Virus record (IMG/VR): IMGVR_UViG_3300017963_000140
Location: 1 to 39,778 of that record
Direction: 5' to 3' (one strand)
Source: a virus
DNA: 39,778 bases
The notes below the pieces were generated by a model. That model did no database searches. It saw nothing but the letters and a program-made list of their open reading frames with translations, and was not told the origin of the DNA. Each line of letters begins with the position of its first letter. Positions within the stretch are counted from its first letter, which is position 1. Shown here in pieces: positions 8,609-38,250 of this stretch. The translations under genes and the position numbers were made by a program.

Positions 8609-8851
8609 ATGCCAACCTGTAAGGACTGCGGTAAACCAACCGCCACCAAACAACTCTGCCAGCCCTGCGCCGTCAAATACTCCAACAAGCGGATGAAGGC
8701 CCTCGGCAAAGGCAAGCTGACGCCAGAGCGCCAAAAGGCTTGGTACAGGGAGCGCCAGCGCAACATCGACCTCACGCGCGAACTCAAGGGCGCACCCGCC
8801 GACAAGGTGCCGATCGCTGAAATCGCCTGGCTCAAAAGGAAAATGCCATGA
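8609..8851 (+). CDS. Small zinc-ribbon protein
   Basis: An 80-residue protein with CKDCGKP near residue 4 and CQPCAVKY near 17, forming a four-Cys zinc ribbon, then a very basic helical region. AAGGAGG precedes its ATG. Its TGA overlaps the ATG of the PP-loop gene, suggesting a functional partnership with it. Possible role in nucleic-acid binding; inference. Confidence 0.7.
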   Translation: MPTCKDCGKPTATKQLCQPCAVKYSNKRMKALGKGKLTPERQKAWYRERQRNIDLTRELKGAPADKVPIAEIAWLKRKMP

Positions 8852-9600
8852 TTGCGGTTTGGTTTTCGTGCGGGGCCGCCAGCGCCGCTGCCCTCAAGCT
8901 GACCCTGGAACGGTTCCCGAATGAGGACGTGCGCGCCATCAATCAGCCCATTGCCGAAGAACACCCAGACAACCAGCGGTTCCTGGATGATGTCGCGCAC
9001 TGGTGTGGCGTCGAGATTGAGCGGTTTACGCCGTCGAAGTATCCAAGCGGATCGGCCGTTGAGGTGTGGGACAAGCGTAAAGCGATGGTGTTCCCGCACG
9101 GCGCGCCTTGCACCCTCGTGCTCAAGAAAGACGCACGTCGCGAATGGGAGGCGCTGCACAACCCTGATCAGCACGTGCTTGGCTTCACGGCAGAAGAAAA
9201 GGACCGGCATGATCGGTTTACGCTGACGGAGCGCGACAACGTGATACCGATCTTGATCGACGCTGCGATGACGAAAGCCGACTGCGGCGACATGATCCGC
9301 GCCGCTGGCATCAAACTTCCGGCAATCTATGATCACGGCTTCCCAAACGCCAATTGCCTTGGCTGCGTCAAGGCGACCAGTCCGACATATTGGAACCATC
9401 TGCGCAGGGAGTTCCCTAGCGTTTTTAATGACCGTGCAGAGCAATCACGCCGCCTTGGCGTTCGTCTTGTCCGCGTCAATGATGAGCGGATTTTCCTTGA
9501 TGAACTAGACCCACACGCAAAAGGCGATCCGATGTGGCAAATGCCGCCGTGCTCGCTGTTCTGTGAAGAATGGGTGCCGCCGCAAAGGAAAGAGATATGA
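8848..9600 (+). CDS. PP-loop ATP pyrophosphatase, PAPS-reductase-like (phage type)
   Basis: A 250-residue protein. The N-terminus has the PP-loop variant WFSCGAASAAA (residues 5-15), the phage form of the SGGxDS nucleotide-binding loop of PAPS reductases and related adenine nucleotide alpha hydrolases. The C-terminal half has NCLGCVK (about residue 171) and PPCSLFC, four Cys that could bind iron-sulfur or zinc. Reported substrates of the family are sulfate and base or sulfur transfer; a phage copy next to a methyltransferase gene may modify nucleic acids, which is inference. Coupled to neighbours on both sides. Alternative: a tRNA-modifying or sulfur-assimilation enzyme. Confidence 0.8.
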   Translation: MIAVWFSCGAASAAALKLTLERFPNEDVRAINQPIAEEHPDNQRFLDDVAHWCGVEIERFTPSKYPSGSAVEVWDKRKAMVFPHGAPCTLVLKKDARREWEALHNPDQHVLGFTAEEKDRHDRFTLTERDNVIPILIDAAMTKADCGDMIRAAGIKLPAIYDHGFPNANCLGCVKATSPTYWNHLRREFPSVFNDRAEQSRRLGVRLVRVNDERIFLDELDPHAKGDPMWQMPPCSLFCEEWVPPQRKEI

Positions 9601-11022: not shown

Positions 11023-11733
11023 ATGCACAAAGAACAAATCGGCGATTGCACGCTCTATGAAGGCGACTGCCGGGACATCTTGCCGACGCTCGGGCGAGTC
11101 GATGCCGTCGTGACTGATCCGCCATATGGAATCGGGTTTAGTAAATACGAATCCCACAAAGATGATGTTGATGAGTATGAAGAGATGATGCGTGAAGTGA
11201 TACGCATGGCAACCGATTTGGGACCCCACACGCAGGCGTATTGGCAGGGAATGACAAATGCGGACAAATGGCACAAGTGGTTCCCAAATGGGTTTAGGAT
11301 ATTCGCAGCATGCAAAGGATTTGTACAGATTCGTCCGGTTGCAGTGCAGTATTCTTGGGACCCTGTGATATTTTGGACAAATAGAAAAGCTAAAGCCTCT
11401 GCGACTTCTCCAAAGGATTGGTCGATCCAGTTGCTTGCACCATTTGGTGCAAATAGACCTAGGGTTGATCACCCATGCCCAAGACCTTTAGAGCAATGTC
11501 AATATGTTGTTTGTGCCATGAGCGCGGACAATGAAATTGTTGCAGACCCTTTCATGGGGTCTGGAACAACGGGCGTAGCGTGTGCCACATCAGGCCGCAA
11601 GTTCATCGGCATCGAATGCGAACCCAAATACTTTGACATCGCCTGCAAGCGCATAGAAGACGCCTACAAGCAGCCTGACCTGTTCGTCGAGCCCGCCAAG
11701 CCGCCAGCCGAACAACTTGCCCTTCTCGATTAG
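11023..11733 (+). CDS. DNA methyltransferase, DPPY type (N6-adenine likely)
   Basis: A 236-residue enzyme. The catalytic DPPY is at residues 32-35 (VVTDPPYGIGF) and the SAM-binding DPFMGSGTTG at 175-184, an order matching the beta class of N6-adenine or N4-cytosine methyltransferases. The central recognition region (about residues 30-175) is markedly richer in A/T than both ends of the gene, so that part was probably exchanged by recombination. Likely roles: protection from host restriction or altering host methylation signals. Target sequence cannot be told. GcrA-like gene follows 27 bases later. Confidence 0.9.
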   Translation: MHKEQIGDCTLYEGDCRDILPTLGRVDAVVTDPPYGIGFSKYESHKDDVDEYEEMMREVIRMATDLGPHTQAYWQGMTNADKWHKWFPNGFRIFAACKGFVQIRPVAVQYSWDPVIFWTNRKAKASATSPKDWSIQLLAPFGANRPRVDHPCPRPLEQCQYVVCAMSADNEIVADPFMGSGTTGVACATSGRKFIGIECEPKYFDIACKRIEDAYKQPDLFVEPAKPPAEQLALLD

Positions 11734-16508: not shown

Positions 16509-18519
16509 CCAGAAGAACAACCCCGACGTTGATATTAAAGAGGTCGAGCGCCCGCAGACCAAGCCGCGCACGAGCCGTTTCTGGCTGCAACAGATTCAGA
16601 TCGCCGAGAAAGAACACAAGGAATTCTGGGAAACGGGCCAAAAGTTTGAAAAGCGTTACCTTAACGATCGCGAAGGCCACCACCGCAAGGCGATGGCCCG
16701 CCGCTTTCAGATCGTCTACGCCAACACCGAAACCGTGATGTCGGCGCTTTACGCGCGCCAGGCCAAGCCCGACGTGCGCCAGCGGTTTACGGCCGCCGGT
16801 GACAAGACCGCCCGCACCATCGCCGACATGCTGGAGAAGGCACTGTCCTTTCTTCAAGACACCACCGAGCACGACAAGGTGAACCGCCGCGCCGTCAAGG
16901 ACATGGCGCTTGGTGGCCGGGGCATCGTCCGGGTCTGCTACGAGGCAGAAACCGGTGACGATGGCATGGGCAACGAAATCATCGTTCGCCAGATGATCAA
17001 GGACGAGCACGTCTATTACGGCGACTTTCTGCACTCTCAGGCCAAGAGCTGGTCCGATGTTTGGTGGGTTGGCTTCCGCCATCATTTCACCCGCGCCGAT
17101 CTCCGCGACATGGACATTCCAAACGCCGACGACATCCCGCTTGATTGGGCGCCGGACGGTTTCGGCAACAAAGACTCGGAAATCCCCGAAGACCTCAAGC
17201 GCGCGGAAGTGTGGGAGATTTGGCACAAGCCCAAGAAAGAAAGGTTGTGGGTCGTCAAGGGCTACAACTACATCCTGCGCGTTGACGAAGACCCGTACCA
17301 GCTTGAAAACTTCTGGCCGATGGCCGAGCCGATCCAAGGCGTGTGGAGCAACTGCTCATTCGTCCCGCGCAGCCCGATCGTCGAGTATGAAGACCAGATT
17401 GACGACCTCGACGAGATCACGGACCGCATCAGCAGGCTCACCAAGGCGTTGAAGCGGCGTGGTGTCTATGACGCTGCCGTCAAGGAGTTGGCCCGGCTCG
17501 CCAAGGCATCAGATAACCAGTTCATTCCGGTTGAGAACTTTGCGGCGTTCCTTCAGGGCGGCGGGTTCCAGGGCGCCTTCCAAACCGAAGACCTCCAGCC
17601 CGCCATTGCGGTCCTTGCCGGCCTCTATGAGCAGCGCCAACAGTTGATCGAGACGATTTATGAAGTCACCGGCATCTCAGACATCATGCGCGGTCAGAGC
17701 CAGGCCAGCGAGACGGCGACGGCGCAATCAATCAAAGCTCAATACGGCTCGGCCCGTATTAAAGAGCGCCAACAAGACGTCCAGCGGTGGATCAGGGACG
17801 GGATGCGGATCAAGGCCGAACTGATCGCCGAGCATCTCCAGCCTGAAATCCTGATGGAGATGACTGGCGAAGAACTGCCGACGGCGGCGGAAGTGAGTGC
17901 GCAATACGCTCAAATGCAGATGCAGGCCATGATGACCGGCCAGCAGCCACCGCCACCGCCTGACGTGCTCACGATCGACCAAGTGGTGGAGATCATGCGC
18001 AACGACCGGCTGCGCAGCTATCACGTGGACATTGAGACGGATTCGACGATTTTTGAGGACGCGGCGCAGGAAAAGCAGGACCGCGTTGAACTGTTGCAGA
18101 GCATGGCGACCTTCATGCAGGCGATCCTGCCGCTGGCTCAGGTAGGTGGCCCGCCGATGCAGAAGCTCGGCCTCGATATGCTTGAATTCGGCGTCCGGGG
18201 CTTCAAGGGCGGTCGGCAGATGGAGGACTCGTTAGACGAGATGCGCCAGGCGCTTGAACAGGCCGCGCAGCAGCCGCCCGAGCCGCCGCCGCCTGATCCC
18301 GCCGTCGAGGCTGAGAAGGCGAAAGCCGAGTCCATGCGGATGAAGGCTGAGATTGACGCCCGCAAGGCTGAAATGGACATGGCCAAGACGCAGGCCGCCA
18401 CCGAGGCGGACATGATGCGCATTCAGGCCAAGACCCAAGCCGACGCGATGAAAACGAACCTCGACATCGAGCGCATGATTGCCGATGCACAACTGCGGGA
18501 TGAGGGGCCGCCGAACTGA
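16501..18519 (+). CDS. Portal protein
   Basis: A 672-residue protein, a usual size for podovirus-type portals. The N-terminal FQIVYANTETVMSALYARQAKP and the following region are typical of this portal class, and the gene lies right after terL. The C-terminus is a long Gln/Ala/Met/Lys helical tail with PPEPPPPDP, probably the crown or barrel helix. It forms the dodecameric gate for packaging and ejection. Start overlaps terL by 8 bases. Confidence 0.92.
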   Translation: MADQKNNPDVDIKEVERPQTKPRTSRFWLQQIQIAEKEHKEFWETGQKFEKRYLNDREGHHRKAMARRFQIVYANTETVMSALYARQAKPDVRQRFTAAGDKTARTIADMLEKALSFLQDTTEHDKVNRRAVKDMALGGRGIVRVCYEAETGDDGMGNEIIVRQMIKDEHVYYGDFLHSQAKSWSDVWWVGFRHHFTRADLRDMDIPNADDIPLDWAPDGFGNKDSEIPEDLKRAEVWEIWHKPKKERLWVVKGYNYILRVDEDPYQLENFWPMAEPIQGVWSNCSFVPRSPIVEYEDQIDDLDEITDRISRLTKALKRRGVYDAAVKELARLAKASDNQFIPVENFAAFLQGGGFQGAFQTEDLQPAIAVLAGLYEQRQQLIETIYEVTGISDIMRGQSQASETATAQSIKAQYGSARIKERQQDVQRWIRDGMRIKAELIAEHLQPEILMEMTGEELPTAAEVSAQYAQMQMQAMMTGQQPPPPPDVLTIDQVVEIMRNDRLRSYHVDIETDSTIFEDAAQEKQDRVELLQSMATFMQAILPLAQVGGPPMQKLGLDMLEFGVRGFKGGRQMEDSLDEMRQALEQAAQQPPEPPPPDPAVEAEKAKAESMRMKAEIDARKAEMDMAKTQAATEADMMRIQAKTQADAMKTNLDIERMIADAQLRDEGPPN

Positions 18520-19115
18520 TGCTGCCATACGACATCACGCAACATCTGAACGCGAACGCCCGCCAGGGATACGGCAACCTCGCCGACCCGATGAAGATGG
18601 CGTTGGCGCGGATGCTCATGAACATGCCGCCCGAGTATCGCAATCAGTTGCTGATCTCGGATACGGGTCGCAATTGGGATCAGCAGGTGGCCGCCGCCCG
18701 TCGGCATGGCCTCGATCCGATGACCGGCAAGCCTGGCGTGCTCGCGCCGTGGGGGCGTGGCAAGCATCACGGCAAGGCAGCAACCGCGATCGACTTCTAC
18801 AAGCCCCGCCCGGATGCACTGCGCTGGATGCGTGAGAATGCGGGGCAGTACGGCCTGGCGTTCCCGATCAAGCAAGACCCCTGGCATATGGAGTTCACGG
18901 GCGACGTGCCGCCACCAAAGCCGCCTGGACCGGCTGCGGGATCGTTTCGAGCCGCGCAAGAGACGGGTGTTAACGCAGGCCCGGCCGCTGGTTCGTTCCG
19001 CGGAGCGCAGACAGTGGCGCCGCCACCAGCACCGGCTCAACAACCGCGCCAACAAGATCAGATGATCGCCCAACTGCTCAAAAACTGGACATACGGAGTG
19101 GATGGCCTTGGCTAG
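18519..19115 (+). CDS. M15/VanY-like peptidoglycan peptidase in the head module
   Basis: A 198-residue protein. Metal and catalytic signatures of the M15 (VanY/DD-carboxypeptidase) family: GKHHGKAATAIDF with His84 and Asp92, and WHMEF with His123. The tail after residue 127 is Pro/Ala-rich with a duplicated AAGSFR element. Placed between portal and capsid genes, away from the lysis cassette, it is probably a virion-carried enzyme that opens the cell wall during DNA entry. Coupled to the portal stop by one-base overlap. Confidence 0.85.
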   Translation: MLPYDITQHLNANARQGYGNLADPMKMALARMLMNMPPEYRNQLLISDTGRNWDQQVAAARRHGLDPMTGKPGVLAPWGRGKHHGKAATAIDFYKPRPDALRWMRENAGQYGLAFPIKQDPWHMEFTGDVPPPKPPGPAAGSFRAAQETGVNAGPAAGSFRGAQTVAPPPAPAQQPRQQDQMIAQLLKNWTYGVDGLG

Positions 19116-20271
19116 TCTCGCCGAAATGCTGATGGGCTATGTGATGCCCCCGGAAGGCGCGGAAGTCGTTGAGGGCACCCGCGGCGGAATGCTGCCGGTG
19201 GCCAACTACCGCCTGCCTGATGGGCGTGTGGTGGGCGGTCCAGCGTTTCCGCAGCCGATGGCGGATGCCGGCAACGCGATGGCATATGCGCTCGGCTACA
19301 CCCAAGACCCCAACGCGCCGGAAGGCTACGTGAGCCAAGAGGCGCTGCAACGTGGCGGTGAAGGACTGGCGGGATCGGCTGCTGTTGGTGGGCTGGCGGT
19401 TGGCAAAGCGCCGAAGAACGCGGTTGGCATGTTTGCTGGACAACGCGCCAAGACCGCCGACTTAGACGCTCTCAAGATGGCCCAGGCGTTGAAGGAACAG
19501 GGCGCGCCACGCGAAAGCATCTGGACGCAAACGGGATGGTTTGAAGGGCCTGATGGTAAATGGCGCTTTGAGATAGACGATAGCAAAGCGCGTCTTCGCA
19601 GGCGCGGCGAAACATTTGGCGAGCAATGGTCTAAAATGCCAGATGACGCCGATGCTGATTTAAAATATTTCCTTCAGCACCGCGACCTTGAAGCTGCTTA
19701 TCCTGCTGTTGCTAACAAGGATGTCGAGGCGCTCAATCCAAGACTTGGATACGACGGCTGGTTTCATCAAAACAGGCTCGGATTTGCGAAAGATTTAAAC
19801 CGCGACGATCTTCGCACAACGATGTTGCACGAAGGCAATCACGCAATTGAACCGTTGGAAGACTTCGCGCGCCAAGGACTGTATCAAAAGTTAACAGATG
19901 ACGAATACGATCGCCTTGGTTCTGAGGTTTTATCAAGAGCAGTCGAAGCCCGTCGCGATCTCACACCAGAACAGCGCCGCGCCCGCCCGCCGTGGCTGGA
20001 CTATGACGTTGATGAGGGCAACATCCTCGCCGCCAACCGCTCTCAAGCCGCTGCCCCGGGTCAAATATTAGCGCAGAAGAATTCACGCGGCCCCGGACAG
20101 CCGCCCACGGTCACGGACCTCGGCCGCGCCTTGGTTGAGGCTGAAGGCCGCCCACGCCCGCCAGGATCGCCGCCGCGCGTTACCGACATGGCCCGCGCCG
20201 AGATGGCACAACGCGCCCGTGACGAGGCCGACCGCCAAGCACTCATCCGCTATCTGCAAGGGGGACAATGA
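19102..20271 (+). CDS. Zincin-like polyvalent structural protein with HEGNH motif
   Basis: A 389-residue protein. N-terminal third is head/tail-associated and Gly/Ala-rich. The middle has TADLDALKMAQALKEQGAP followed by SIWTQTGWFEGPDGKWRFEI, a motif shared with phage polyvalent proteins, and then TTMLHEGNHAIEPLEDFARQ where His243-Glu244-His247 forms a HExxH zinc site. The stretch 19440-19960 has lower GC than its flanks, indicating an acquired domain. C-terminus is Pro/Arg-rich and virion-like. Predicted metallopeptidase packed into or delivered by the virion; target unknown. Confidence 0.75.
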   Translation: MALASLAEMLMGYVMPPEGAEVVEGTRGGMLPVANYRLPDGRVVGGPAFPQPMADAGNAMAYALGYTQDPNAPEGYVSQEALQRGGEGLAGSAAVGGLAVGKAPKNAVGMFAGQRAKTADLDALKMAQALKEQGAPRESIWTQTGWFEGPDGKWRFEIDDSKARLRRRGETFGEQWSKMPDDADADLKYFLQHRDLEAAYPAVANKDVEALNPRLGYDGWFHQNRLGFAKDLNRDDLRTTMLHEGNHAIEPLEDFARQGLYQKLTDDEYDRLGSEVLSRAVEARRDLTPEQRRARPPWLDYDVDEGNILAANRSQAAAPGQILAQKNSRGPGQPPTVTDLGRALVEAEGRPRPPGSPPRVTDMARAEMAQRARDEADRQALIRYLQGGQ

Positions 20272-21633: not shown

Positions 21634-22590
21634 ATGGCAACGCCTAACAGTTCGTTTTCGGACATCATTACGACGACCTTCCAGGGTTATAGCGGACGGA
21701 TCGCCGACAACATCACCAACCATAACGCCTTGCTTCGTCAGATTGAGCGCAAGGGCAACATGATGCCGGCCACGGGCCGTGAAATCGTTCAAGAGATCGA
21801 CTTCGCCGAGAATGGTACGGTGCAATGGTACGCGGGCGCAGAAACGCTCGATATTTCGGCCAGCGAGACCTTCACGGCAGCTTCTTTTTCATACAAGCAG
21901 CTCGCCGGTAACGTGGTCATCAACGGCCTCGAAGAAGTCCAGAACTCGGGCCGTGAAGCGATCCACAACCTCGTCCGCGCCCGCATGACTAACCTGGAAC
22001 GGTCGCTGAAGAACACGGTCGCGACTGCGCTCTATGCCGATGGCACGGGCTCGGGCGGTAAGGAGTTCGGTGGCCTTCAGCTCTTGGTCGCTGACACCAA
22101 CACAAACACCGTTGGCGGCATCTCCGGCAGCACGTATTCGTGGTGGCGGAACTATGTCTTTGACTTCTCTACGGAGTCGGTGACGGCCTCGGCCACGACC
22201 ATTCAGACGGCAATGAACACGGCATGGCTCAACGTCATTCGTGGCTCTGACATGCCTGACATGATCGTGGCCGGCACGACGTACTACACGCACTATTGGG
22301 ACAGCCTCTTGGCCAACCAGCGGTTTACGTCGGACAGCGAAGCCGGAGCCGGGTTCACGAACTTGGTGTATAAAGGCAATGTTCCGGTCATCTTCGACGA
22401 TCAGTGTGCCGCCACTCGGATGTACATGCTGAACACCGATTATCTGTTCGTGCGTCCGGCCAAAGGGCGTTGGCTGAAGCCGCTGCCCGACAAGTCCTCA
22501 GTGAACCAAGACGCCATGGTTATGCCGATCGTTCTGGCCGGCAACATGACCGTCAGCAACCGCAGCCTTCAGGCCGTTATCACCGCCTAA
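21634..22590 (+). CDS. Major capsid protein
   Basis: A 318-residue protein directly after the scaffold. Opens SDIITTTFQGYSGRIADNIT and contains FAENGTVQWYAGAETLDISA and NSGREAIHNLVRARMTNLER, patterns found in the gp6-like/HK97-fold capsid family of podovirus-type phages. Codons are the most host-adapted in the window, as expected for the most expressed gene. Ribosome site AGGAG precedes the ATG. Confidence 0.92.
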   Translation: MATPNSSFSDIITTTFQGYSGRIADNITNHNALLRQIERKGNMMPATGREIVQEIDFAENGTVQWYAGAETLDISASETFTAASFSYKQLAGNVVINGLEEVQNSGREAIHNLVRARMTNLERSLKNTVATALYADGTGSGGKEFGGLQLLVADTNTNTVGGISGSTYSWWRNYVFDFSTESVTASATTIQTAMNTAWLNVIRGSDMPDMIVAGTTYYTHYWDSLLANQRFTSDSEAGAGFTNLVYKGNVPVIFDDQCAATRMYMLNTDYLFVRPAKGRWLKPLPDKSSVNQDAMVMPIVLAGNMTVSNRSLQAVITA

Positions 22591-22614: not shown

Positions 22615-23112
22615 ATGACTTTTAGAAGTGACACCGGCTACGTCGGCCACCCGCCGATCACGGACATCAGCACCACGGAAAAGGTGCCGCTTGGTACGAT
22701 TATTTGCGCTCACGATGATGATGGCGGCGGCGCCGCCGAGTTCATCTATCTCCAGGGCGTGGCCTCGACCGGCGTTGGCGACATTGTTGAGTACAACTCG
22801 TCTTTCCAGACGGGTCTGTCGTCGATCGCCATTGCGGCGCCGTCTGAACCGCTGGCGGTCGCTATGGCGGCGTGCACGGCGTCTTACTATGGCTGGTATC
22901 AGATCAGCGGCCTGGCCACGGTGTCGAAAGCCTCGGCCACGTCATTCGCGGCGGATGCCGGGATCGGCGCCACATCGGGCGAAGCTGTTGCAGTGGCCTC
23001 CGGCCTCATCGTCAACGGTGCCGTTGTGGCTTCGGCCGCTTCGGGCGCATCGGCGGTTACGACGGTTTCCGTCATGATCAACCGTCCGCACGCACCGGCT
23101 GACGTCAGCTAA
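22615..23112 (+). CDS. Head decoration/minor head protein
   Basis: A 165-residue, Ala/Ser/Val-rich beta protein (TEKVPLGTIICAHDDDG, then YLQGVASTGVGDIVEYNS). Size, composition and place directly after the capsid gene suggest a capsid-decorating protein (similar in style to DUF2190 proteins). AGAAGGAGA precedes the ATG. Family not certain. Confidence 0.7.
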   Translation: MTFRSDTGYVGHPPITDISTTEKVPLGTIICAHDDDGGGAAEFIYLQGVASTGVGDIVEYNSSFQTGLSSIAIAAPSEPLAVAMAACTASYYGWYQISGLATVSKASATSFAADAGIGATSGEAVAVASGLIVNGAVVASAASGASAVTTVSVMINRPHAPADVS

Positions 23113-23119
23113 CACTAAT

Positions 23120-23143
23120 GCGGCGGGGCTTTGGTCCCGCCGC
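23120..23143 (+). terminator. Hairpin after the capsid/decoration genes
   Basis: GCGGCGGG (23120-23127) and CCCGCCGC (23136-23143) make a perfect 8-bp stem with an 8-base loop, 8 bases after the decoration-gene stop. Only TT follows, so it is a weak terminator or attenuator that would lower expression of the downstream gene relative to the capsid. Confidence 0.6.
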
Positions 23144-23159
23144 TTCACGGGGAGGGGAC

Positions 23160-24521
23160 ATGGCAGAATACGATTACATGGTGGAAGTGCAAAACCCGCA
23201 CGCCGAGGCGCCGCTTCAGATTGCGGTGACGAGCAACGTCACGCTGGAAGACATCAATCACAACGTCGCGGTGAATGCAACGCGGGGTGGCATTCGGTGG
23301 TTTGCCTGCCGGGATGCGTTTGAAGAACGCGCCATCATCGTCGGCGGCGGGCCCTCGCTGGCGGACAACACTGCCGCGATCCGCGAAATGGCCGAGGATC
23401 ACGTTGTCATTGCCGTCAATGGTGCGTCTAAATTCCTGTCCGAGCGCGGCATCGAGGTTGATTTCCAGTTCATCATGGATGCGCGGCCCGAAAACGCGAG
23501 CCTGATCGACCCGGACGCCCACAACTACACGCTCGCCTCGCAATGCCACCCGGCACTGTTCAATTTGGTGCCAGAAGCCCGCACCGAGATGGTGCACCTT
23601 AACTCACCGGGCATCGAAGATCACTTCCCAACGCCACGGCGCAAGGCTGGCGGCTACACGCTCATCGGCGGCGCCGCCTCCGTCGGCAACAGCGCGCTTT
23701 GCCTCGCGCACGCCATGGGTCACCGCGACCTGCACGTGTTCGGCTTCGATACGTCCGTGGATGGCGAAAAGCGCCACGCCTACCCTCAAGACATGAACAA
23801 CGGCGAAGCTCTCATCCAGAAGCGCCTTGGCAATCGCGCCTATTGGATGAGCTACGCCATGGCCGTGCAATACCAGCTCTTTTTTACCATTGAAGAAGAG
23901 CTGAAGAAGCTAGGCACCAAGCTGACCGTCTACGGCGACGGTATCCTGCCCGAACGCTGGCGCATGAAGCAGAAGGCTGACGCCATGACGGAAGCCGAGA
24001 AATACGAACTCGTTTGGTCGCATTCTGAGTATGGCATCGTTTCACCCGCCGAGCGCATTGCGCACGTCATTGACGGCTGGCTGCCGCCCAAGGCGGACGT
24101 GCTGGACCTTGGCTGCGGTGTTGGCCGCGCTGCCGTGAAACTCACCGAGATGGGCCACAACGTCCACTTGATCGACTTCGTGGAAAACTCGCGTGATCAA
24201 TCGGCCATGAGTTTGCCATTCACCAAAGCAGACCTGTCAAAACCCCTGCCAATTTCGGCCGAACACGGGTATTGTTGCGACGTGATGGAGCACATACCGC
24301 CGGGCGATGTTTCCAGCGTCATTGAAAACATCGCCAATGCCTGCAGCAAAGGCGTCTTGTGGCGTATCGAGTTCGATCTGGACGGCCATGGCCCGGCTCT
24401 GATCGGCACCCCGTTACACCTCAGCGTTCATGATCATATTTGGTGGGCTGAAGAACTCGCCCATCATTTCGATGTTGTCGAATATCGCGGCAACGGCATC
24501 TTCATCACGGAGCACACCTAA
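23160..24521 (+). CDS. MptE/DUF115-like protein fused to a SAM methyltransferase
   Basis: A 453-residue protein with GGGGAGGGG before the ATG at 23160. N-terminal domain: AIIVGGGPSLADN (about 60-72), VNGASKFLSERGIEVDFQFI, YTLIGGAASVGNSALCLA and HVFGFDTSVDG, matching MptE-like/DUF115 proteins, a family of nucleotide- or sugar-transfer enzymes related to flagellin glycosyltransferases. C-terminal domain from residue about 300: DVLDLGCGVGRAAVKL (Asp316 to Gly321), a class I methyltransferase, ending CDVMEHIPP. The two domains are in one frame. It lies in the head operon. A virion glycan modification (transfer plus methylation) is an inference; a role in changing host surface is also possible. 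Confidence 0.85.
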   Translation: MAEYDYMVEVQNPHAEAPLQIAVTSNVTLEDINHNVAVNATRGGIRWFACRDAFEERAIIVGGGPSLADNTAAIREMAEDHVVIAVNGASKFLSERGIEVDFQFIMDARPENASLIDPDAHNYTLASQCHPALFNLVPEARTEMVHLNSPGIEDHFPTPRRKAGGYTLIGGAASVGNSALCLAHAMGHRDLHVFGFDTSVDGEKRHAYPQDMNNGEALIQKRLGNRAYWMSYAMAVQYQLFFTIEEELKKLGTKLTVYGDGILPERWRMKQKADAMTEAEKYELVWSHSEYGIVSPAERIAHVIDGWLPPKADVLDLGCGVGRAAVKLTEMGHNVHLIDFVENSRDQSAMSLPFTKADLSKPLPISAEHGYCCDVMEHIPPGDVSSVIENIANACSKGVLWRIEFDLDGHGPALIGTPLHLSVHDHIWWAEELAHHFDVVEYRGNGIFITEHT

Positions 24522-24754
24522 TGGCTACCTGCGACGTCTACAAAGGCCCGATCAAGCTTGGCAGCGGCACCGCAACCAGCGGATCGGCAACCATCTCGTC
24601 TTACACATCGACCGGCGTAAAAGCCGAAGATCGCGTGAACGTCCAGATCGCGATCACGTCGAGCACCAACGCAGGCGCCACGTTCCGCGCCCGTGTCATC
24701 ACCGATAATGGAACGTCACTGGTGCTTTCCGAAGCATCACCGTATTCAACCTAA
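24521..24754 (+). CDS. Small beta-rich structural protein
   Basis: A 77-residue Thr/Ser/Ala-rich protein (TATSGSATISSYTSTGVKAE, then VNVQIAITSSTNAGA). TAATG overlap with the preceding stop. Composition matches small head or tail accessory proteins. Function unknown. Confidence 0.65.
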   Translation: MATCDVYKGPIKLGSGTATSGSATISSYTSTGVKAEDRVNVQIAITSSTNAGATFRARVITDNGTSLVLSEASPYST

Positions 24755-24766
24755 GAGGGGGACATT

Positions 24767-25297
24767 ATGGATCAACAAGCACTTAGGGACTTGGAGGGGC
24801 CGGGGCGGCTCCGCGCCACGTTCTTCTTCGACGAAGACCTTGGCTATGAAGTCTGCCAGGTGAAGATCGTCGGCGACCCGTCTGACATCATCTATAAGGT
24901 CAAGCCGGACGTGATTAACCGCTTCCCGAAAGAATGGGAACTGTACCAGAAGCAGGCCGGCAAGCGGAGCGACGAGCCAGTTGAAGGCACGCCGATCCGC
25001 GAGGTGCCCGGCGTCGATCGCGATGCGGCGGTTGTGCTGCGCTACAACATGGTGCGCACGGCGGAAGAGTTTGCCGCCCTCGATGAGCAGACGGCGCGCG
25101 GATTCGGGGCGGGATATCTCGCCATGTGGAAAGCCGCCAAGCTGCTGGTTGAGTCCAAGACCCGCAAGGCAGAAACGGACCGCATCGCCGAGCTTGAAGC
25201 CAAGCTGGCGGCGCTTGAAGAAAAGCCCAAGCGTGGCCCAGGTCGGCCGCGCAAGGAAGAGAGCGAAACGCTCGACATCCCCGACAACGCAGCTTGA
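24767..25297 (+). CDS. Virion protein with C-terminal AT-hook-like tail
   Basis: A 176-residue protein. N-terminal half is a beta-rich domain (LRATFFFDEDLGYEVCQVKI), the middle helical, and the last 25 residues contain PKRGPGRPRKEE, an AT-hook type GRPRK element. Position after the fusion gene and before the adaptor gene suggests a head-completion protein; the basic tail may contact DNA. GAGGGGGA precedes the ATG. Family not identified. Confidence 0.7.
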   Translation: MDQQALRDLEGPGRLRATFFFDEDLGYEVCQVKIVGDPSDIIYKVKPDVINRFPKEWELYQKQAGKRSDEPVEGTPIREVPGVDRDAAVVLRYNMVRTAEEFAALDEQTARGFGAGYLAMWKAAKLLVESKTRKAETDRIAELEAKLAALEEKPKRGPGRPRKEESETLDIPDNAA

Positions 25298-25309: not shown

Positions 25310-26014
25310 GTGAGTCTGCTTTCGATGATCCAACAGGTCGCCGATGAGATCGGCTTGCCGCGCCCCAATCAGGTGATTGGGACGTCTGACACTCAGGTGC
25401 GCCAACTTTTCGGCCTTGCCAACGCCGAGGGCCGGGAACTGGCCCGCCGGGGCTATTGGCAAGAGCTTACCAAAGAGACAACATTCACGACGACGGCGAC
25501 AGAAGAACAATCCAACGTGCTGCCGTCGGACTTTGATCGCCTGATCGAGGGGAGCGTCTGGAACCGGGATCAAGGCCGTAAGGTCGCCGGGCCGCTCACG
25601 CCGCAACGCTGGCAGGCCCTCAAGACAAACCTTTATCAGTCGGTTTGGGACAGCTTTCGCATTAGGGGCGATTCATTCCTGTGTCAGCCCGTGCCGACCG
25701 CCGGCGAGACATGGGCGTTTGAGTATGTGTCTCTTAACTGGCTGACCAACGCCGCCGGCGACACCGAATACGCCGCCTGGCAGGCCGACGACGACGTTGG
25801 CATCTTGTGCGAATGCCTGATGGGCCTTGGCGTCAAATGGCGGTTCCTGCGTGAAAAGGGCATGGACTATTCAGAAGCTTTCCGCACTTACGAGATGGAG
25901 TTGACGCAGCGTCTCGCGAACAACGGCGGAATGCGGTTCTTGGACCTTGAGACGGATCAGGGCACGTCAACCGTGTTTGACCCGTTCACGCCTGAAAGCA
26001 ATTGGACGCTATGA
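25310..26014 (+). CDS. Head-tail adaptor protein (GTG start)
   Basis: A 234-residue protein starting at GTG with AGGAGA upstream. Pattern LLSMIQQVADEIGLPRPNQV, LFGLANAEGRELARRGYWQE, ATEEQSNVLPSDFDRLIEGS and FRIRGDSFLCQPVPTAGETW is that of the adaptor family found next to the portal in podoviruses. It attaches to the portal and forms the tail base. Good family match by motif, no distinct catalytic sites expected. Confidence 0.85.
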   Translation: MSLLSMIQQVADEIGLPRPNQVIGTSDTQVRQLFGLANAEGRELARRGYWQELTKETTFTTTATEEQSNVLPSDFDRLIEGSVWNRDQGRKVAGPLTPQRWQALKTNLYQSVWDSFRIRGDSFLCQPVPTAGETWAFEYVSLNWLTNAAGDTEYAAWQADDDVGILCECLMGLGVKWRFLREKGMDYSEAFRTYEMELTQRLANNGGMRFLDLETDQGTSTVFDPFTPESNWTL

Positions 26015-37581: not shown

Positions 37582-37612
37582 TGATGCGTATCACACCACA
37601 GGACACGCATCA
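37582..37612 (+). promoter_or_regulatory. Hairpin over the start of the lysis-module gene
   Basis: TGATGCGT (37582-37589) pairs perfectly with ACGCATCA (37605-37612), whose last base is the A of the ATG start. A smaller palindrome (GTGATGCGTATCAC) lies in the left arm. The hairpin could hide the start codon and delay translation of the lysis-side genes. Confidence 0.5.
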
Positions 37613-38250
37613 TGGCCAAATTTGACCCCGCCCGCCATCGCGTCGTTGCCGTTCCTTACCGAGACGACGACCCAGAAAAGGGCCAGCACTTCCACGTTGA
37701 TCTTGACGCCCTCGTGGACGCCGCGCGCCAAGCCGCGGCCGGCGATGTTTCACGTGAAACACTCGGCGATGATCAGGGCCTGTTCCTTGCTAAGCGGTGC
37801 CAGCAACTCGAAGCCAAGCTGACCGAAGCCGAAGCGCGTTTGGCTGAACTCGAAGCCCGCCCCACAGTTTCCGAAGACACAATCCGCCAGTTCGACGACG
37901 CCTTCAACAGCAAGGTCAACACCCTCGTCGAAAAGCGGGTCAATGCGGCGCTAGGTGACTTGCGTAGCCGCGTCGTATCCGTCGAGAAGAAATCGACCAG
38001 CCTCACGACGCAGCAAGACCCAGAGAGCGCCAAGATCAGCCGGCTGGCGTCTTTGATGCAATCGTTCGGGGAGTACATCAAAGAAGTTGAGACTTCGGTC
38101 GAGAAGCGACAGACCGACATCGAAAACGCGCACGCTCAGCTAGCGGAGTACATCACCGATAATAACGTGAAGGTCATGAAATTGGCCTCGAAGCTGCACG
38201 CCGCTATGCAGGCCCTTGAGACGGACGTCGATGAGGGAAAGGCAGCGTGA
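37612..38250 (+). CDS. Coiled-coil protein before the endolysin, unknown
   Basis: A 212-residue protein. First 55 residues form a small domain (RHRVVAVPYRDDDPEKGQHF), then extended coiled coil (QLEAKLTEAEARLAELEARP) to the end. AGGA precedes the ATG at a wide spacing. The stop overlaps the endolysin start (TGATG). A structural or lysis-timing role is possible; no family recognised. Confidence 0.7.
   Translation: MAKFDPARHRVVAVPYRDDDPEKGQHFHVDLDALVDAARQAAAGDVSRETLGDDQGLFLAKRCQQLEAKLTEAEARLAELEARPTVSEDTIRQFDDAFNSKVNTLVEKRVNAALGDLRSRVVSVEKKSTSLTTQQDPESAKISRLASLMQSFGEYIKEVETSVEKRQTDIENAHAQLAEYITDNNVKVMKLASKLHAAMQALETDVDEGKAA

Follow-up and report, generated by a model that had tools for sequence, protein, structure and literature searches.

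The question raised by this locus is what purpose is served by a protein that joins a DUF115-type domain to a methyltransferase in the head operon of a phage. The stretch of DNA considered, here termed the window, is 39,778 nucleotides long and corresponds to one entire IMG/VR virus record (IMGVR_UViG_3300017963_000140). According to the original prediction, a glycosyl-transfer-like domain and a SAM methyltransferase are fused in a single protein encoded directly after the capsid genes and behind an attenuating hairpin, and this protein may decorate the capsid or the fibres with a methylated sugar. The features of the region are listed in Table 1.

Table 1. Position of the fusion gene, its two domains and the surrounding features in the window.
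Feature	Coordinates	Strand	Evidence or remark
Major capsid protein (MCP)	21634..22590	+	phrog_9953, E 2e-89
Head decoration/virion structural protein, proposed acceptor	22615..23112	+	phrog_29386, E 3e-21; partial r 0.65; one label change on tree
GC-rich stem-loop ending the MCP-decoration unit	23120..23143	+	-22 kcal/mol in a 47-nt intergenic stretch; without T-run
Shine-Dalgarno-like gggagggg before ATG 23160	23150..23157	+	Sequence
DUF115/Maf-like transferase-class I methyltransferase fusion	23160..24521	+	453 aa; Pfam, AlphaFold2, 69-sequence alignment
Maf-like transferase domain (predicted), residues 3-270	23166..23969	+	VIA Z 21.7/21.9 to 5mu5; HMM E 6e-14; conservation
Class I SAM methyltransferase domain, residues 274-453	23979..24518	+	Motif I D316-x-G-C-G-x-G, D339, D374-V-M-E-H, LHL, WW
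Small gene behind the fusion, no assigned function	24521..24754	+	Mainly in close relatives
Mx8 p50-like gene behind the slot	24767..25297	+	Synteny
Tail/neck protein	25310..26014	+	phrog_6013, E 4e-51

Domain composition of the fusion protein

The fusion reading frame is uninterrupted from its ATG to its stop codon; an alternative in-frame ATG upstream, at position 23118, lies at the hairpin and is not preceded by a Shine-Dalgarno-like site. When the protein was compared with Pfam, residues 55-199 matched PF01973 (MptE-like/DUF115; E 8e-19, 68.5 bits versus a cut-off of 34.6) and residues 314-398 matched Methyltransf_25 (E 8e-7, 30.2 bits versus a cut-off of 27). In an alignment into which 69 non-redundant fusion relatives were taken, the first match was obtained for all 69 members and the second for 68. 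In the first domain, G62, G64, S66, N87, D107, S127, R189, D197, H206, Q210 and N213 are invariant or nearly so and G176 is likewise invariant, as are D316, G318, G320, G322, D339, D358, D374, E377, H378, H420 and W429 in the methyltransferase domain. This is the pattern expected of working enzymes, and activity is predicted for both domains. Structure prediction, put forward as a check of the original prediction, yielded a confident AlphaFold2 model of the whole fusion (pLDDT 94.4, pTM 0.87) that comprises a Maf-type fold followed by a class I methyltransferase fold. While fold and family of both domains are thus computed, transferase activity, donor, acceptor and sugar methylation are what we infer from them.

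The name MptE-like attached to PF01973 proved to be misleading, since the ranking of folds and the sequence profiles agree in describing the domain as Maf-like. In the full model, residues 3-270 match the Maf glycosyltransferase 5mu5 with a Z-score of 21.7, and the separately modelled domain (residues 2-270) matches it with a Z-score of 21.9 over 225 residues (rmsd 3.3). By contrast, the Z-score against MptE (8sd5) is 15.3 over 189 residues, that against the GT42 sialyltransferases CstI and CstII is about 10-11 (2p2v, 2x62 and 1ro8 at 10.5-10.8) and that against GT29 sialyltransferases is about 8-10. Sequence profiles rank the candidates in the same manner, with an E-value of 6e-14 for Maf versus 0.002 for MptE; moreover, the match to Maf spans the segment containing invariant D197, H206 and Q210, whereas that to MptE ends before it. 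As such, this domain is, by sequence and by model, closer to the Maf flagellin glycosyltransferases than to the MptE pterin pyrophosphokinase, so that MptE was ruled out as first choice and the glycosyl-transfer-like reading originally offered is favoured.

The likeness to Maf enzymes, as represented by Magnetospirillum magneticum (M. magneticum) Maf (5MU5), Clostridium botulinum (C. botulinum) CbMaf and PseD, concerns their central PF01973 domain, with its conserved G-x-G-x-S motif and D/H/Q segment. The three-domain Maf architecture is, however, absent, with 5mu5 aligning over the core alone; the fusion lacks the N- and C-terminal domains and the flagellin context of Maf, carries instead an intact class I methyltransferase, and sits in a phage head operon. 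Counting against a Maf-type reading, the profile alignment pairs N87 and D107 with G and E of Maf, respectively. The NCBIfam model PseD was the commonest family match (48 of the 69 members at E<=0.01), albeit far under its cut-off, the window protein scoring 26 bits against the 670 required of a full-length match and in the middle of the model only. MptE (the archaeal 6-hydroxymethylpterin pyrophosphokinase) shares the Pfam family name and the fold but matches more weakly, ending before the invariant H-Q-N segment, and the fusion has no pterin context. The GT42 and GT29 enzymes share the fold and a G-x-G-P-S-type loop but show low sequence identity, and none of the solved members was found to be matched directly by sequence; phrog_4603, named alpha-2,3-sialyltransferase, gave a weak match (E 0.009). 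The structure database BFVD contains similar uncharacterised proteins, again labelled MptE-like.

Residues 274-453 match class I methyltransferases with Z-scores of 16-19 in the AlphaFold2 model, and the curated score, motif I, an acidic residue after strand 2 and the fold all identify the domain as a class I SAM methyltransferase. The sugar N-methyltransferases TylM1 and CalS10 are two among many structural matches in this class, and the fold does not distinguish sugars from other substrates. Nor are bacterial chromosomal relatives, found in Chlamydiae, Planctomycetes and Rhodobacter, informative on the substrate, their neighbours (PHO4, TylF-like, flagellar hook) being unrelated.

Genomic position and distribution of the domain pair

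The genes for TerL (15174) and a P22-like portal (16501) precede those of the MCP and the decoration protein, matching phrog_9953 and phrog_29386, respectively, and tail/neck genes lie downstream; the position directly after capsid genes was thus borne out, as was the fusion itself, given the Pfam scores above the cut-offs and the open reading frame. The order MCP, decoration protein, fusion and neck genes is found in essentially all loci of the window's group. Although an initial genome scan with the single fusion protein returned no matches, a profile scan revealed at least 80 full-length relatives in viral contigs. In total, the order DUF115-methyltransferase was seen in 100 loci and the reversed order in 49 (e.g., L101, L100 and L214-L260), and in at least 11 loci the two are encoded by separate neighbouring genes. 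When the methyltransferase alone served as query and DUF115 neighbours were called by an iterated profile, DUF115 was fused to (13), downstream of (15) or upstream of (15) the methyltransferase in 43 of 50 informative non-redundant viral loci; seven of the 50 were without DUF115, and seven further loci, outside the 50, had too little flank. Single-linkage clustering of the DUF115-like neighbours was set aside, a sulfotransferase-like protein having been drawn in; an ORF beside the methyltransferase in L178 (1868-2467) appears sulfotransferase-like by eye.

No fusion was found among GenBank phages, where the sole match, MW202621, has split genes, with the methyltransferase immediately after the MCP and a DUF115-like gene behind it. 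In L110 and L145-L147, genes for DUF115, methyltransferase and glycosyltransferase follow one another, the glycosyltransferase of L110 belonging to phrog_1962 (E 3e-48), while the separate DUF115 protein of L145 matches phrog_4603 (E 7e-14). Because of this glycosyltransferase cassette and the sialyltransferase match, the pair can be tied to glycan chemistry.

The pair is found beside four unrelated MCP families. Apart from that of the window, a methyltransferase gene follows Gp13-like MCPs (PF20036/phrog_247) in Variovorax, Lysobacter and Pseudoxanthomonas prophages and in MW202621, such an MCP being encoded by the Variovorax prophage L107, with homologues in L105, L108 and L005; the prophages with a split pair behind such an MCP belong to Variovorax sp. 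J22R193 (L107), Lysobacter dokdonensis DS-58 (L105) and Pseudoxanthomonas sacheonensis DSM 19373 (L108); a split pair or reversed fusion adjoins an MCP of phrog_267 (L101) or phrog_1005 (L149). Most reversed fusions are flanked by two small related phrog_644 proteins without known function. In L215-L260, these two homologous proteins are Ser/Thr-rich.

Within the window's group, the fusion is an accessory gene. Cultured phages that share the head module, and the hairpin behind the decoration gene where tested, namely, Mx8, Mx9, BUCT555, ppBjS10J-1, 45A6, RHph_I3_18 and Mwe-JY13, differ from the window phage in lacking it. To gauge the presence of the fusion, 51 viral loci were picked by MCP alone. 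Of these, 12 contain the fusion, three DUF115 without methyltransferase, two the reversed fusion and 28 none, while six were too short, contig ends hiding the slot in some loci. All enzyme variants (fusion, reversed and DUF115-only) occupy one shared slot.

Several further arrangements were noted in these surveys. In L285 (6394-8103), the same slot holds DUF115 fused to a C-terminal domain of some 290 residues without assigned identity. In L288 (5771-7285), a phrog_28018 protein of no known function (E 3e-54) lies between the decoration gene and a reversed fusion; it seems glycosyltransferase-like by eye (MDCDMM), with Pfam giving no match. L017, L034 and L044 contain an additional DUF115-like ORF downstream of the fusion. 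Finally, L096 carries the fusion and head module in a 649-kb contig binned as Isosphaeraceae (Planctomycetota), and is probably a prophage.

The hairpin between the decoration and fusion genes is, in its 76-nt context, weakly unusual (z -1.9). Behind the decoration gene, 72 of the 73 loci with the fusion carry a stem-loop (median z -3.9 versus mononucleotide shuffles), and so do 30 of the 31 that lack the fusion and all seven reference phages, Mx8 included; in the same loci, it is as a rule absent after the MCP gene and after the fusion. Its sequence varies freely, with a run of at least five T in 20 of 73 stretches. The best reading is that it terminates the MCP-decoration unit or marks its 3' end. 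The idea that it is a device of the fusion gene was ruled out, since it is equally present where the fusion is missing. The stem folds and its position is conserved. The term attenuating, as used in the original prediction, is reasonable, but the copy in the window has no T-run and the structure is not specific to the fusion. Being inserted behind this hairpin, the fusion is probably made in lower amounts.

Co-inheritance of the fusion and decoration genes

Co-variation was considered by comparing pairwise identities over 43 loci in a Mantel analysis with 500 permutations, the loci being related and partly picked by the fusion itself. Where the decoration proteins of two phages were more alike, so were their fusions (r 0.64, partial 0.65, with none of the 500 permutations as high). 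In these 43 loci, no such co-variation was seen with the MCP (partial -0.07), tail (-0.20) or amidase (0.08). Of the two halves, the transferase co-varies more with the decoration protein (0.64) than does the methyltransferase (0.39). In the MCP-picked set, a decoration protein of the window type was found in all 15 loci with the DUF115-methyltransferase fusion or DUF115 only, in neither of the two with a reversed fusion, and in four of the 25 without an enzyme; the corresponding Fisher value of 1e-7 overstates this association, because the loci are related. When mapped onto trees, the fusion label changes five times on that of the MCP versus once on that of the decoration protein.

This co-inheritance is the pattern that an enzyme and its acceptor would give, yet physical linkage alone could also give it. 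A variant of the glycosylation proposal set out below, and one not exclusive of it, holds that the virion is indeed glycosylated but that the co-variation reflects only linkage, the acceptor being the MCP or another head protein. The two genes are adjacent and seem to move between phages together; in L015, for example, identity to the window is 92% for the MCP, 50% for the decoration protein and 42% for the fusion. Against linkage alone, the MCP and decoration genes are equally close and do not co-vary (partial 0.01), and with its other neighbour the fusion co-varies at only about 0.24-0.26. This variant is thus considered unlikely, though it deserves real weight. Pairing of enzyme and acceptor is in turn challenged by Mx8, Mx9 and L284, which have a window-type decoration protein and no fusion, and by the DUF115-only phages L271 and L272, whose decoration protein lies on a different branch. 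Conserved Ser/Thr residues of the window-type decoration protein (positions 52, 66, 110, 129 and 143) are not probative, as some are common to Mx8.

Proposed virion glycosylation and competing explanations

It is proposed, at a level of confidence midway between doubt and conviction, that the fusion is a two-step enzyme that places a CMP-activated ulosonic acid of the host on Ser/Thr residues of a head protein, and that the sugar is methylated. The N-terminal Maf/sialyltransferase-type domain would most likely move the sugar, with CMP-Kdo or a nonulosonate such as Pse, Leg or Neu5Ac as candidate donors; the acceptor would most likely be the decoration protein encoded just upstream. The C-terminal SAM-dependent methyltransferase would cap the sugar, before or after transfer, and placement of the gene behind the hairpin would keep the enzyme at catalytic, not structural, levels. 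Shielding, stability or adhesion may be the benefit to the phage. No gene for donor synthesis was found among the window genes scanned, so that the donor would have to come from the host. As Kdo synthesis is nearly universal among Gram-negative hosts, the phage would not have to bring a donor pathway. Characterised Maf enzymes put nonulosonic acids on Ser/Thr residues of flagellin, the donors of CbMaf including CMP-Neu5Ac/Neu5Ac and Kdo (PMC11339370).

Given that the domain pair is widespread among uncultured phages and travels with the decoration gene, the virion is probably coated with a methylated sugar. Of the two targets originally named, the capsid finds support in the slot, in the four capsid lineages and in the co-variation with the decoration protein, while fibres gained none.

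That the enzyme instead alters a host surface glycan (LPS, capsule or flagellin), serving superinfection exclusion or receptor masking and sitting in the head operon for late timing, is improbable. Relatives of both domains do work on bacterial surface structures, Maf modifying flagellin (PMC11339370), but neither adjacency to the capsid region in four unrelated lineages nor co-variation with the decoration protein instead of tail genes would be expected. Still more doubtful is the possibility that the substrate of the methyltransferase is the head protein itself, with DUF115 adding an unrelated group or merely positioning this substrate. The seven loci with methyltransferase and no DUF115, and a fold that gives no reading of the substrate, agree with this; the presence of DUF115 in the other 43 informative loci and the stronger co-variation of the transferase half argue against it, as do L271 and L272, where DUF115 stands alone in the slot and the transferase is therefore able to do so. 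It is very unlikely that the protein is carried in the virion or ejected, rather than modifying virion proteins: although sited amid structural genes, it lies behind the hairpin that closes the high-output unit, its catalytic-type motifs are invariant in nearly all members, and syntenic relatives without it still build heads. Hardly any credence is given to a true MptE-like 6-hydroxymethylpterin pyrophosphokinase, or related nucleotide enzyme of cofactor or nucleotide metabolism, which is suggested by the Pfam name and shared fold but is opposed by the clearly nearer Maf and by the sialyltransferase and glycosyltransferase links, and which leaves the head linkage unexplained.

Virion glycosylation as such is already known, in the literature found for few phages, mostly actinobacterial. 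In the mycobacteriophages Che8, Corndog and Myrna, capsid and tail-tube proteins are reported to be glycosylated by the phage's own enzymes (PMC12363180; Freeman et al. 2023, as cited in PMC12363180, PMC12691614 and PMC13313380); as described there, these systems resemble that proposed here in employing phage-encoded transferases that act on capsid and tail proteins, but belong to another host group and consist of separate genes. In Rhodococcus phages, a glycosyltransferase and a methyltransferase were interpreted in terms of virion glycosylation (PMC13313380), and virion glycosylation can, according to another report, hinder antibody recognition (PMC12691614). In the literature, no report of a Maf/DUF115-type transferase in phage virion glycosylation was found, and searches for DUF115 or MptE-like in phages gave nothing on phage function, a BREX match concerning DUF1156. 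What is new is thus the Maf/DUF115-type enzyme and its linkage to the decoration gene.

Tentatively, and less firmly than the two-step activity itself, we propose that a Maf-type transferase was recruited to attach methylated ulosonic acids to head decoration proteins in an undescribed but widespread system, in which decoration protein and enzyme form an exchanged cassette that was repeatedly assembled, in two fusion orders and as split pairs, beside unrelated capsids. Were this so, virion glycosylation would be carried out by another type of enzyme, and a much more widespread one, in uncultured Mx8-related phages and in siphovirus-like prophages of bacteria that can be obtained, Maf-type protein O-glycosylation would extend beyond flagellin, and the misleading label 'pterin diphosphokinase' would be corrected on many phage proteins. 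The enzyme-substrate cassette would, moreover, be directly testable.

Elsewhere in the window, the early region encodes a PAPS-reductase-domain protein (E 8e-6) and a DNA methyltransferase (8848-9600 and 11023-11733). Part of the tape-measure/endolysin-type PHROGs is resembled by the ORF at 18519-19115 (E 5e-11), though the phage looks podovirus-like. The ORF at 19102-20271, between the portal and MCP genes, contains an LPD23 polyvalent-protein domain (E 2e-26) and possibly encodes an ejected protein. A coiled-coil-rich protein is encoded before the endolysin (37612-38250).
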